64,000 nt of DNA from Clostridium sp. Marseille-Q2269 (GTDB lineage Bacteria > Bacillota > Clostridia > Clostridiales > Clostridiaceae). Below the pieces are notes generated by a model. The model had not been told where the DNA came from. It was given only the letters and a program-made list of their open reading frames with translations, and made no database searches. The stretch lies in assembly GCF_943736985.1 (NCBI RefSeq), contig NZ_CALSFS010000008.1, positions 1 to 64,000 of the forward strand, read 5' to 3'. The translations under genes were made by a program, and so were the position numbers. This document shows positions 2,526 to 12,386 of this stretch, in pieces (position 1 is the first letter of the stretch; each line of letters opens with the position of its first letter).

Positions 2526-3434
2526 CTATTTAAAAGTACTTTTTAGTAATGATATATTGTGCTCTATCATATCTTCATACAATATATTGTTATCATAAAC
2601 CTTCATAAGTAAAGATTTTATTTTATATTTGTCTAATAGGTTTTTATTATTTTCAAGTATATCATTGTCACTTGATAAAAATATGCATTTGTCTTTATAC
2701 TTTTTACATATATCTTCTATTTCTTTCTCATTAGTTATTTTATCTTTATCATCTCTTTTAATTTTTACTGTGTTTAAATTTAGATATTTTATAAAATAGT
2801 CTAGTTTATCCTCATCTACTATAAATATATAATCACCAGTTTTATCTGATATGTTATTAAATTCCTCCTCATAACTCTTAATTCTCTTTAACATATCAGA
2901 AAAATTTTTTTCATAAAAATCTCTATTACTGGGATCTTTATCTTGTATAGCATTTTTTATGTTAGATAATGCTATTTTATAATTATTTAAATTCAAAAAA
3001 TAATACGGATTATCTTTTAATATTTTATTTCCAAACTTTACTTCTTTTTCATAAGGCATTAATTTAGAACCTCTAGATACATTAACTACTCCTACTTTAC
3101 TTTTATCTAATTTTGATAGGAAATCATCAATCCAAGGCTCAAAACCAGATCCTACATAAAAAAATAGATCCTTACCACTTATATTTTCCAGTGTGTCCTC
3201 CTTTACTTTATAATTCATCAATTCATCTTTGTTTTTAAATATATATTCTATATAGTGCTTATCTTTTACTATTTCTTTTATTATGTTATATAAGTTTTTA
3301 TCTGTAGTAACTATATCTAGATATACTTCCTTTTTTATGTTATCGTCTCCATCAACACCATTATTTGTTCTTGAACAACCAAATAAACTTATACATATTA
3401 TAAATCCAATTATAAGAATAATATTTTTCTTCAT
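2526..3434 (-). CDS. Orphan ZnuA-like metal-binding lipoprotein
   Basis: A 302-residue lipoprotein: signal MKKNIILIIGFIICISLFGC with lipobox Cys at residue 20. The body resembles periplasmic metal-binding proteins of the ZnuA/TroA cluster (GSGFEPWIDDFLSKLDKSKVGVVNVSRG, then NPYYFLNLNNYKIALSNIKNA). In that family the segment is normally DPHxWLD, with a metal-ligand His; here it is NPYYFLN. The usual His-rich loop is also absent, so classical zinc or manganese binding is doubtful. No ABC permease or ATPase gene is adjacent. It may be a degenerate or specialised surface lipoprotein. The start ATG sits behind AGAGGTG. Confidence 0.6.
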   Translation of the reverse strand: MKKNIILIIGFIICISLFGCSRTNNGVDGDDNIKKEVYLDIVTTDKNLYNIIKEIVKDKHYIEYIFKNKDELMNYKVKEDTLENISGKDLFFYVGSGFEPWIDDFLSKLDKSKVGVVNVSRGSKLMPYEKEVKFGNKILKDNPYYFLNLNNYKIALSNIKNAIQDKDPSNRDFYEKNFSDMLKRIKSYEEEFNNISDKTGDYIFIVDEDKLDYFIKYLNLNTVKIKRDDKDKITNEKEIEDICKKYKDKCIFLSSDNDILENNKNLLDKYKIKSLLMKVYDNNILYEDMIEHNISLLKSTFK

Positions 3435-8706: not shown

Positions 8707-9864
8707 TTACCTATTTTTCTTATAAAATTTATTTATTCCTGGAAACATAACTTTAAAACAATTCTCTCTAAAAGAATTTATAAAGATAACTTTTCCCTTT
8801 CCTCTAAATGCTTTTTTCATTCTTCTAAAACCATTTCCCGATTTAGTAAATCTATTTTTATCATCAAGTGTTATTAATTTTTCATATATCCACATATTTC
8901 TTTTTAATGTATTAAAGGAACTCATATTATTATCTCTTAATAAACATCCTGGACTTATTATACTAATACTTTTATTGTCTATTAATACCTGTATCTCTTC
9001 ATAAAATATGGAATAATCTCTATATAACACTGCATTATTTATAGCTTCACATACTGCATCTATAGGATATGATTTAGGTAAAATATTTAGTAAAATATTT
9101 CTAGACCTATCTATAATATATAATAAATCTCCTTGAATTATATTAACTTTATCAAATTTGTTATTTATATTATTAATTATCTTTATTCCGTTGTGAGGTA
9201 AAAATATATTATTTTTTCTAGAAAATATAAGTAATCCTCCTAAAGATCCTACAAATTTACCTAGTTCCTTATCATAGTTTATTATAGATGCTTTTTCCAT
9301 CATACTTATTCTATTGTCTTCATTAACAGCCACACCCATTGCACTAAAGTATTTATCTACTAAAGATATCTCCATATCCTTTTCATCACTTTTGATTATA
9401 GAACATAGCTCAATATTTAAACTTAAATTGTCCTGAAGAGAAGATATAATCTCTTCCTTTCTCATAACATCTGTAGTTGATCCTCTTCTTATATAAAAAA
9501 CTCCATTTTCTCTCATCTGATAAGGCTTCTGATCACTATCATATATATTAATAATAACTAATCTTTTCCCTTTATATTGCAATGTTTCTAATGATATGGG
9601 TACAGGTGGATCTGTCCTTGAACTTATGATTTGTTGTATCTGTTCCTCTGTAAAATCCATATTATCTATACCAACTATATTTTTAGTTTTATCCTCTACC
9701 CCTATGATGATATATCCTCTACCACCTTTAGAGTTAGCAATGGCAGAAACATCTTTTGTTAATTCCTTTTTCCCACTTTCCGTATTAATATCTATAATCT
9801 GTTTGAAATCTAATTTTAAACCTTCATTTTTTTTAATTAAACTAGCCAATTTTTTTTCATCCAT
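8707..9864 (-). CDS. AlbA_2/Schlafen-type ATP-binding putative regulator
   Basis: A 385-residue protein. The N-terminal 130 residues are an AlbA_2 (Schlafen AAA_4-like) domain: EGLKLDFKQII, then DVSAIANSKGGRGYIIIGVED and YQMRENGVFYIRRGSTT. Near residues 265-285 comes a GHKL-like ATPase segment, VCEAINNAVLYRDYS, as in the RecG-like C-terminal ATP-binding domain (PF13749). Proteins of this layout are often called transcriptional regulators or ATP-dependent helicases; the role is not established. It lies downstream of the large structured noncoding island, on the same strand, behind AGGAGT. It could be an accessory gene linked to that island; this is only an inference from adjacency. Confidence 0.65.
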   Translation of the reverse strand: MDEKKLASLIKKNEGLKLDFKQIIDINTESGKKELTKDVSAIANSKGGRGYIIIGVEDKTKNIVGIDNMDFTEEQIQQIISSRTDPPVPISLETLQYKGKRLVIINIYDSDQKPYQMRENGVFYIRRGSTTDVMRKEEIISSLQDNLSLNIELCSIIKSDEKDMEISLVDKYFSAMGVAVNEDNRISMMEKASIINYDKELGKFVGSLGGLLIFSRKNNIFLPHNGIKIINNINNKFDKVNIIQGDLLYIIDRSRNILLNILPKSYPIDAVCEAINNAVLYRDYSIFYEEIQVLIDNKSISIISPGCLLRDNNMSSFNTLKRNMWIYEKLITLDDKNRFTKSGNGFRRMKKAFRGKGKVIFINSFRENCFKVMFPGINKFYKKNR

Positions 9865-10001
9865 AACACTACTCCTAAAATACTTATAGCTGATAATATA
9901 TTATATACATAAAAACCGATTTATATATTATATTTTAAATGATTTAATTTAATATTTACAGAGTATTTTCAAAATAAGTCGTAAAATAAGAAAATTACGA
10001 C

Positions 10002-10108
10002 ATAACAGACTTTAAAGGATTAAAATTAAAACAAGGAATACTTTTAGTCAATAGATAGCTATTTTCCTTAAAAGTATTCCTTGTTTTAATCCACTTAAAG
10101 ACTGTTAT
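10002..10108. repeat. Long near-perfect hairpin within the island
   Basis: ATAACAG...CTTTAA...GGATTAAAA...AAGGAATACTTTTA on the left is mirrored by its complement on the right, giving a stem of about 40 bp with small bulges and a loop of about 20 nt. Such a structure is longer than an ordinary terminator. Confidence 0.7.
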
Positions 10109-10478
10109 ATAAATTTTTAGTCTCACATAAATATTTTAAATTTAAATATAAAATAATTGGCATAGCCAGGAAATTAATCCATAGGAAATTTCATTGCTAA
10201 CGCATAAATATTTAGTATTAATAATACTTGTATAAATTTTATAAATCATATATTAGTCTGGCATACTACGCATTAATTTTCTAACGAAAATTTTTTAAGA
10301 CTTTTTTAAATAATAAAAATAATTGAGAGTTTCTAATAGCTTTAAATATCTTTATGAGTCTACAATATTCTTATAAATAAAAACATAATTGTAGATTTTA
10401 CGTAACAAAGAGGAGTAAAATCCTCCTTTGTACTTCCTATTCCACATAAAATTACGTTTAAATAGATATAATATCTTT

Positions 10479-10693
10479 CTTAGATTAAAAAATTGGGATA
10501 AGTGGCGTAAAAAGGCATTTGAACAAAATTAGAGATTCTTATTTGTTTTCGAAAATATATGTATATTCCAAATTATTGTTTGAGCGTTCAGCCAGTTATA
10601 ATTTGGAATCATATATTTTAAGGAAAAACAAATTAGAATTTCTTATTGAAGTGAATTGTCTTTCAAGCCACATATCCCTTTTTTTAATCTAAG
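10479..10693. repeat. Nested long inverted repeat within the island
   Basis: Outer arms at 10479-10506 (CTTAGATTAAAAAATTGGG, then ATAAGTGGC) and 10667-10693 are complementary over about 27 bp with few mismatches. Inside, 10531-10576 and 10597-10644 form a second long imperfect stem (AGATTCTTATTTGTTTT and AAATATATG..TTCCAAATTAT on the left), closing a loop of about 20 nt that contains GAGCGTTC. Confidence 0.7.
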
Positions 10694-10727
10694 GTAGTGA
10701 CTTTTAAGTCGTAATTTTATTATTTTA

Positions 10728-12386
10728 TTAATATTCATAAAAACAACTTCCGCCTATGAATTCCCTTAATATAGAATTATCAGGAACCAAATCCATATCA
10801 ACCTCTTTGAAAAAGTTTAGGAAACTTTTCAATCTAGTTGCTTCATAGTAAACGTCACTATTCTTATCTATCTTATTAAGTTCTTCAAGAGCGTATTTTT
10901 TTAATACACAAAGTTCATAGACTATTGTGGAGTTAAACATTATATCTGCATTTTCTTGGAACACAAATATATTTCTATCTTCTCCCCTTTTTATGGAAGA
11001 CCACATTCTTAAAGTTTCTTCTCCTCTATAGCCCCTTGATAAATAGTCTCTAACTAATCTTCTTATTATTCTTACATCAGTTGTGGACACTCTATTATGG
11101 TTGTCTATATTTAATTGAGTTAGTGCGCTTATATATATTTTAAATTTATTTTCATCGTTTATCTCTCTTGTTAATATTGGATTTAATCCATGTATTCCTT
11201 CTATTATCAATATACCATTTTTAGGGAGTTTTATTTTATTACCTTTATATTCTCTTTTTCCAATTTTGAAATTAAAAGTAGGTAATTCGATCTCTTCCCC
11301 TTTTAATATTTGTTTTAAATTTTCATTAAATAAATCTATATCTAAAGCATCAATAGATTCAAAATCATAGTCTCCATTTTTATCTCTAGGCGTGTTCTCT
11401 CTATCTACAAAATAATTGTCTAAAGAAATAGGAACAGGAATCAAGCCATTTACTCTTAACTGGATTCCAACTCTATTTGCAAATGTAGTTTTTCCTGATG
11501 ATGAAGGTCCTGATATTAGTATCATCTTTATATTATTTTTGTCATATACTATGTCTGCTATATTTGCTATTTTCTTTTCATGTAATGCCTCTGATACTCT
11601 TATTATATTTTTTATTTCACCGTTAACAACTTTGTCATTCAATGCTCCTACATCTGCTACATCTAAAATTCCCCCCCATCTTTCTGTTTCTCTAAATATT
11701 TTCGTAAGTTTTTTATATTCAATAAAATCTGGAATATTAAATGGATCTTTTTCTCTAGGATATCTTAATATAAATCCTGGATCATAGTACATAATATCAA
11801 ATTTTTTAATTGCTCCTGTTGAATATGCCATTGTTCCATAGAAATAATCGTATCTTCCATCTAATTCATACAATTTTACTTCCGTATATGGAACATGATT
11901 TAAAAGTCTAACTTTATCTTTCATTCCATACTCTTTAAATATTTCTACAGCTTTTTCTTTTTTAATCCAAACCTTTTTTATCTTTATATCTTTATTTATT
12001 ATTTCATTCATTTTATTTTTAATTTTTAATATATCACCTTTATTTAATAATAGATTTTTATGAATTTCACCATATAGTCCTTTACCTAAAGAATGCTCAA
12101 TAATAACAGTAGCCTTTGGATATAAGTCTAATACTGCTTTTATAAATATAAATTGCAAAGTCCTAACATAAGTATTTAATCCCATCCTATCTGTTATGTC
12201 TACAGGGGTGAATAATCCTTCTTTTTTAACTTTGGAAGCTAGTTCATAATATTCTCCATCTATTTTCCCAAGTAATGCAGGCAAGTTACCTTCTAATTTG
12301 TTTTCTTTCATTACATCATACAAATTTTTATCCTTAGATACTAAAATGCTACTACCATTAGGTATATCTAGCTTTAATTCTTCCAT
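10728..12386 (-). CDS. Nucleoside kinase of the uridine kinase/PRK family with N-terminal TGS domain
   Basis: Start chosen at the ATG nine bases after AGGAG; an ATG three codons upstream directly abuts that site. The N-terminal region (about residues 1-60) is TGS-like (LKLDIPNGSSILVSKDKNLYDVM), followed by a threonyl-tRNA-synthetase-like second domain with the GLYGEIH and EHSLGKG context. The kinase domain begins at ISGPSSSGKTTFANR (Walker A) with PVPISLDNYFVDRENTPRD and GILIIEGIHGLNP. This three-part layout is common in clostridia and thermophiles and phosphorylates nucleosides such as uridine in homologues; the exact substrate is not visible. Its stop codon directly touches the structured island. 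Confidence 0.8.
   Translation of the reverse strand: MEELKLDIPNGSSILVSKDKNLYDVMKENKLEGNLPALLGKIDGEYYELASKVKKEGLFTPVDITDRMGLNTYVRTLQFIFIKAVLDLYPKATVIIEHSLGKGLYGEIHKNLLLNKGDILKIKNKMNEIINKDIKIKKVWIKKEKAVEIFKEYGMKDKVRLLNHVPYTEVKLYELDGRYDYFYGTMAYSTGAIKKFDIMYYDPGFILRYPREKDPFNIPDFIEYKKLTKIFRETERWGGILDVADVGALNDKVVNGEIKNIIRVSEALHEKKIANIADIVYDKNNIKMILISGPSSSGKTTFANRVGIQLRVNGLIPVPISLDNYFVDRENTPRDKNGDYDFESIDALDIDLFNENLKQILKGEEIELPTFNFKIGKREYKGNKIKLPKNGILIIEGIHGLNPILTREINDENKFKIYISALTQLNIDNHNRVSTTDVRIIRRLVRDYLSRGYRGEETLRMWSSIKRGEDRNIFVFQENADIMFNSTIVYELCVLKKYALEELNKIDKNSDVYYEATRLKSFLNFFKEVDMDLVPDNSILREFIGGSCFYEY

Follow-up and report, generated by a model that had tools for sequence, protein, structure and literature searches.

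A gene-free, structured island in Clostridium sp. Marseille-Q2269 is probably a decayed mosaic of MITE-like palindromic elements

Introduction

Approximately 860 bases separate a gene of the PRK/uridine-kinase family from an AlbA_2 gene in a 64,000-nucleotide stretch of DNA from Clostridium sp. Marseille-Q2269 (the whole of this stretch is hereafter called the window). Is the strongly folding island in this gap one large structured RNA, or is it a non-autonomous mobile element? An earlier inspection made from the letters alone (the sequence-only reading) had put forward both. We consider it likely that MITE-like palindromic elements, non-autonomous and predicted to be moved by an enzyme acting in trans, make up the island as a mosaic that has since decayed. 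An interspersed hairpin repeat of about 220–250 bp, here named R1, would contribute the main part, as a single copy. The features discussed are as follows.

8707-9864, minus strand: AlbA_2 gene, left neighbour of the island
9982-10008, no strand assigned: left copy of the bounding 27-nt inverted repeat, 89% complementary to 10701-10727
10002-10108, no strand assigned: simple, long hairpin lacking the R1 loop motifs, whose stem has a perfect core of 22 bp
10376-10450, no strand assigned: GGAGG hairpin module (ACGTAACAAAGAGGAGTAAAATCCTCCTTTGTAC), common to repeats in other clostridia
10476-10693, plus strand: R1 element of the window, whose ends CTTAGATTA...TAATCTAAG are inverted; the end motif recurs in genome G080, in copies of R1
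10513-10662, plus strand: structural core of the window's R1 copy, 103.6 bits
10701-10727, no strand assigned: right copy of the bounding inverted repeat, meeting the kinase stop codon
10728-12395, minus strand: PRK/uridine-kinase family gene, right neighbour of the island

Results and discussion

Location and folding of the island

The DNA is AT-rich, with 28% G + C in the window and 23% in the island. The kinase is Clostridiaceae-like, and its top match among 206 Clostridiaceae genomes was 70% identical, so these genomes include no close relative of the window. Only two ORFs, of 43 and 57 amino acids, were found inside positions 9975-10727 at a 40-amino-acid limit and neither is a plausible gene, in agreement with the sequence-only reading, which had described a region without a protein gene abutting the kinase stop codon; the right end does indeed meet that stop at 10728.

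Folding of positions 9975-10727 gave −194.5 kcal/mol for the plus strand (z = −11.6) and −193.8 kcal/mol for the minus strand (z = −9.4), each relative to 20 shuffles, and self-complementarity was far above that of shuffles on both strands alike. The inverted repeats which had been proposed could all be located. The similar sequence claimed for the two ends is the 27-nt repeat listed above, whose score of 18 was reached by none of 500 shuffles (shuffle maximum = 13). The hairpin at 10002-10108 has perfect 22-bp arms (10025-10046 and 10069-10090), compared to a longest perfect arm of 12 in 40 dinucleotide shuffles. The nested pair at 10479-10693 is formed by the arms CTTAGATTAAAAAA/TTTTTTAATCTAAG and a 39-nt pair at 74%, and the middle hairpin, placed near 10400-10430, lies at approximately 10402-10433. 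The folding energy of positions 10470-10700 was −83.2 kcal/mol. A terminator-like GTCGTAA/TTACGAC hairpin had also been suggested: its 7-bp stem is present, but the terminator scan marked only the hairpin at 10410-10427, once on each strand, and left the R1 part unmarked.

Searches with the whole island

A permissive Rfam scan of positions 9500-11200 produced three matches at E ≤ 1 (two microRNAs and one snoRNA), all far under the gathering score. When 29 loci of relatives were scanned at the gathering score, lysine riboswitch, TwoAYGGAY and T-box matches were found, and no family fell on a strong R1 match. GOLLD, ROOL, OLE and HEARO are, like the island, long and heavily structured; however, the comparison with them which the sequence-only reading had called for gave no covariance-model match, and the island consists of modular repeats and not of one conserved molecule. 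The idea of a single RNA of about 700 nt was therefore not upheld: there is no credible Rfam match, the two strands fold alike and in relatives the island was detected only as separate modules. It should also be noted that a weak R1 match (33.5 bits) at L025:2881-3046 in one of the relatives spans the TwoAYGGAY match at 2886-3040.

Searching with the whole island gave matches at E ≤ 1e−7 in 7 of the 206 Clostridiaceae genomes (best two candidates scored per genome). The right hairpin (10476-10685) was matched at five places in four of the 206 genomes, again among the best two candidates of each, and the GGAGG module (10376-10450) was matched alone at four places in genomes G175, G102 and G162, with 78–84% identity. 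The whole island had no match in phage and plasmid records or in four genomes belonging to the genus of G001. A set of 71 short whole-island matches (E ≤ 1) from two genomes was taken as AT-rich noise.

The R1 family

Ten hairpins were aligned to derive a consensus, with changes on both sides in 23 of its 32 pairs, and from this a covariance model of R1 was built. The window has one plus-strand match to the model (103.6 bits, E = 3e−22), and the reverse strand gives a weak match there too. In this copy the GUUAA bulge is missing and the loop has GCCAG in place of the GCGAG of most copies, and for these reasons it reads as a worn, decayed one.

R1 is found well beyond the window. The model matched 77 of the 206 Clostridiaceae genomes (E ≤ 1e−3, at most the best 15 candidates scored per genome) and, at the level of the order, 78 of 225 genomes (E ≤ 1e−6, at most the best 13 candidates per genome); 5 of the 19 order genomes outside Clostridiaceae had a match. 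Eleven genomes were searched with more candidates and yielded from 11 to 110 matches each: at E ≤ 1e−6 G175 (n = 110, including 2 reverse-strand readings of a place already counted), G080 (n = 21), G082 (n = 21), G081 (n = 16) and G079 (n = 11); and at E ≤ 1e−8 G174 (n = 38), G001 (n = 23), G122 (n = 18), G179 (n = 17), G005 (n = 13) and G046 (n = 13). The right hairpin of the island is therefore a member of a repeat family scattered in many copies through the genomes of relatives, which supports the suggestion of a non-autonomous element.

Many dispersed copies, as in MITEs, are thus present in these 11 relatives. Two R1 copies in genome G142 have unlike flanks and share 97.3% identity over 225 bp. 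Twelve complete single copies measured 223–244 bp, and no protein-coding gene was found in these, in the island or in a 1.18-kb unit described below. Some R1 places are common to several species, which means that some copies are not recent arrivals.

We propose that R1 DNA would be spread by an enzyme acting in trans, with either the folded strand or the inverted ends as its recognition signal. The insertions that persist would be chiefly those 3′ of genes and in convergent gaps, where promoters would be unharmed, and the palindromes would later decay through the loss of their centres.

One element or several

It is quite possible, if short of probable, that the island did not arise as a pile of insertions but is a single element of 745 bp, with the 27-nt inverted repeats as its own ends, which would be compatible with the mosaic explanation above. 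The end inverted repeat exceeds chance in the shuffles, and units in G175 show by eye a similar order of ends, hairpin, GGAGG module, R1 and ends. However, the whole unit was not found a second time, matches elsewhere being limited to the right hairpin and the GGAGG module, and the left hairpin and middle (9971-10400) had no match in any of 33 genomes, in a search run without a positive control. The R1 model gave no match on the left hairpin (10002-10108).

A second type of repeat was observed at L026:3903-3970 and L027:4001-4073, with inverted arms like CAGAGGACAGTGAAGG...AAAATCCTCCTTCACTGTCCTCTG and a counterpart in the window at 10376-10450. The end module of this type is also present in the G175 units and in the island.

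Ends, target sites and composite units

Five complete R1 copies in G080 are 232–233 bp long and have the ends TTTTTTCTTAGATTATGCTA.../...TAGCATAATCTAAGAAAAAA, with small differences between copies. The ends of R1 in G001, G122, G179 and G175 are also inverted and differ from those of G080; R1 thus has the terminal inverted repeats of a MITE, varying by lineage. In 13 copies the flanking repeats, as candidate target duplications, had a mean length of 2.5 bases versus 2.0 for mismatched flanks; two G179 copies had repeats of 8 and 6 bases, and the other copies had 0–4 bases. One comparison of an empty and a filled place showed approximately 45 extra bases at the junction. A search with the arm sequences in four genomes recovered both R1 copies and short copies with the same arms and no core, including a 66-bp hairpin in G179, and these core-less copies seem to be palindromes that lost their centre.

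Larger units were found in G175. A 1.18-kb unit is present twice (94% identical) and contains two further hairpins of the R1 kind in inverted order; within its copy at L024 no ORF exceeds 76 amino acids. A 1.75-kb R1...R1 unit at two places (L116 and L117, 97.8% identical) contains a transposase remnant with two stops, and having been found at both places with a dead transposase it was moved or copied as one piece with no functional enzyme encoded inside it. Elsewhere in this genome (L093, L095, L099 and L101), the DNA between paired R1 hairpins includes an IS4 element, a Nudix gene, IS1634 fragments (L099) and an IS4-like fragment.

Such intervening DNA in G175 may be passenger DNA. Mobile insertion cassettes consist of passenger DNA between transposon ends, and some G175 pairs similarly enclose DNA which includes the Nudix gene or transposase remnants; unlike these cassettes, R1 has ends unmatched to known insertion sequences, and the G080 copies and most others inspected are single hairpins. 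An intact IS4-family transposase of G175 was considered as a parent of R1 and rejected, as a 1.6-kb copy of its element lies elsewhere with no R1 in the 4 kb read. Since it also occurs without R1, the 1.6-kb element found in an R1 unit is probably a nested passenger. The IS4-family protein had no match at E ≤ 1e−20 in 11 other R1-bearing genomes. No transposase which could serve as an autonomous partner was recognised in 20 loci (four genomes, best 40 arm-search candidates of each), where most ORFs were judged by eye and eight by Pfam. In G090, ORFs resembling MerR and IS605 OrfB (L135:2248-2999) were observed approximately 1 kb from R1, with one gene between.

These data also bear on a possible movement of R1 in single-stranded form, as DNA handled by a HUH/Y1 enzyme which would read the folded strand in the manner of REP/TnpA_REP or IS200/IS605, a route we regard as somewhat unlikely. 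It would suit the long hairpin with its conserved unpaired bulges and the target duplication that is mostly not seen in the 13 copies, and the paired inverted R1 copies in G175 resemble REP doublets in their layout. In the available text of PMC6006769, REPs are palindromes of 21–65 nt whose foot carries a guide tetranucleotide and which are found in genomes that also contain a tnpA_REP gene; REP classes with atypical feet also exist. Like the REP/BIME/REPIN sequences with TnpA_REP (RAYT) described there, R1 occurs as many intergenic palindromes, either single or in inverted doublets, but it is several times longer and no guide-tetranucleotide foot was seen. Judged by its lengths and, by eye, its ends, R1 is not a 21–65 nt palindrome with a GT[AG]G foot in the copies inspected. 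Further against this route, no HUH gene was recognised near R1 in loci inspected mostly as ORF beginnings by eye, and R1 orientation is mixed along four long contigs (G080 15 plus and 6 minus; G082 6 plus and 15 minus; G081 10 plus and 6 minus; G079 5 plus and 6 minus).

Placement among genes

We tallied the context of R1 at 67 places, which were listed by hand with one match per locus; genuine second matches of a locus were dropped, and the matches of G175 and G174, those of the seed loci and some others were left out. R1 was never inside an ORF of at least 90 amino acids (0 of 67 places). Among the 65 places where both neighbours were seen, 39 were between convergent genes, 24 between co-directional genes and 2 between divergent genes. 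Control gaps without R1 were convergent in 8 of 52 cases and divergent in 19 of 52, from loci largely but not wholly shared with the R1 tally and with ORFs cut at locus ends which may inflate the divergent class; in the window's own gaps each class made up 6 of 39. Relative to the 52 gaps, R1 had an excess of convergent neighbours (Fisher: P = 1e−6) and a lack of divergent ones (P = 3e−6), although orthologous places were counted apart and are not all independent. Between co-directional genes R1 opposed the genes at 14 places and followed them at 10, with no clear direction. This placement fits better with DNA that survives where promoters are unharmed than with a strand-specific RNA at the 3′ end of genes, and any effect of a transcribed R1 hairpin on mRNA ends is probably incidental.

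One other kinase locus carries an R1-like hairpin. In G103, whose kinase is 69% identical to that of the window, an R1-like hairpin with the exact loop (L033:3270-3418, 32.9 bits) lies approximately 115 bases after the same kinase gene; this was the only R1 match at 13 kinase loci of other genomes. The spot downstream of the kinase has thus been hit, or kept, in two distant species.

The folded core

Covariation was measured on 78 matches, from which one weak match was dropped by hand and the other 77 were reduced to 39 copies at < 88% identity. Changes on both sides were present in 31 of the 35 consensus pairs, and 92.4% of cells were paired, versus 66.6% in shuffles and 34–45% when partners were slid by one to three columns, with the caveat that the consensus structure came from the same sequences. 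The arms of a palindrome can also correct each other during replication, which mimics covariation. In the 39 copies the bulges and apical loop (UGUUUGAGC...AGCGAGUUU) are nearly constant, the invariant or near-invariant parts being UUGA.C near the base, CGU.AAGAA with its five-base bulge, the UGUUUGAGC/AGCGAGUUU loop and UUAG on the descending side. The compensatory changes which the sequence-only reading had proposed looking for go beyond the controls in the R1 core: the evidence is strong for the right hairpin module, but such changes were not shown for the island as a whole.

A core of this kind could be the folded substrate of an undescribed clostridial mobility system, in which a putative enzyme would read the constant bulges and apical loop of a long single-strand hairpin of DNA or RNA. 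We regard this reading as rather unlikely. With such an enzyme the stems and ends would be free to change between lineages while still pairing, one core could carry different ends across genomes, and paired cores could flank passenger DNA.

The same covariation, with constant bulges and loop, would be expected of a structured RNA, either an sRNA or a 3′-UTR domain, which has a function in the host and was spread as a regulatory or RNA-stability module. Pair columns 58/107 are G-U in 29 of the 39 copies, and G-U pairs outnumber A-C by 83 to 44 in 26 dereplicated copies and by 100 to 56 in 28 copies, which suggests, and does not prove, that the folding of one strand is favoured. However, the excess lies partly in loop columns and is 17 to 7 in the variable columns (P = 0.06). 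Match numbers which vary widely by genome, ends which change by lineage, the absence of a clear direction between co-directional genes and the lack of an Rfam family on the island and, in the 29 loci, on any strong R1 match also argue against such an RNA, and we consider it improbable.

That R1 copies are chiefly bidirectional terminators, duplicated because they are useful between convergent genes, is very doubtful: the hairpins are very stable, the convergent excess is as described above and two G142 copies have a T-rich stretch 3′ of the hairpin (so that other lineages may differ from G080), but clean G080 copies have a T6...A6 foot, which puts the T-run before the hairpin and not after it, a terminator does not need a constant 150-nt core with conserved bulges, and the scan did not call the R1 part of the window.

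Comparison with known repeats

The preferred reading, of mobile palindromes moved in trans, places R1 in a kind of element which is already known. Like the bacterial MITEs and stem-loop repeats described in the available text of PMC2267715 (Bcr1, ERIC, RUP, BOX and Efa-1), R1 is short, non-coding, intergenic and multi-copy, and folds on both strands. The same source describes two clostridial stem-loop repeats, Clop-1 of C. perfringens (93 bp) and Clot-1 of C. tetani (74 bp); R1, at 220–250 bp, is longer than either in this comparison by length, and parts of it may be identical with them. R1 also differs from known stem-loop repeats in being found in many species and in having constant bulges and loop with changing stems and ends. 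The unusual part is this constant folded core with changing ends. We found no description of the R1 family in literature searches or in the available text of PMC2267715, PMC8632094, PMC6429828, PMC2864571 and PMC6006769, a scope which is exclusive of supplements and subscription papers. Intergenic motifs of C. novyi are analysed in the available text of PMC6429828, whose motif tables lie outside the comparison with R1.

If this reading is correct, R1 is an uncharacterised repeat family present in 77 of the 206 Clostridiaceae genomes searched, which is more than one in three, and its recognition code would be legible from covariation, with constant loops, variable stems and lineage-specific ends. 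R1 would then be a testable system for the spread of mobile DNA that is recognised by its structure, and would explain structured gene-free gaps between convergent clostridial genes. The R1 model also lets annotators mask such islands, which otherwise keep resembling new large RNAs.

R1-like loops in viral contigs and positions along long contigs

The loop pattern was found in five viral contigs (L178-L182), none of which had an R1 match at E ≤ 0.01; in four of the five, the 21-nt R1 loop motif comes after a strong ACCCCCGT...ACGGGGGT hairpin.

We also looked at the positions of R1 matches in four genomes, each on one long contig, and found them concentrated in a single part of it. In G082, 19 of 21 matches lie at 4.1–5.1 of 5.18 Mb; in G081, 13 of 16 lie at 3.1–3.65 of 3.85 Mb; in G080, 19 of 21 lie beyond 3.3 of 5.47 Mb; and in G079 all 11 lie beyond 2.7 of 4.76 Mb. 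A replication-linked orientation of R1 appeared plausible in G080 but was rejected, as the four genomes disagree. The contigs of G079 and G080 start, by eye, with a dnaA-like gene.
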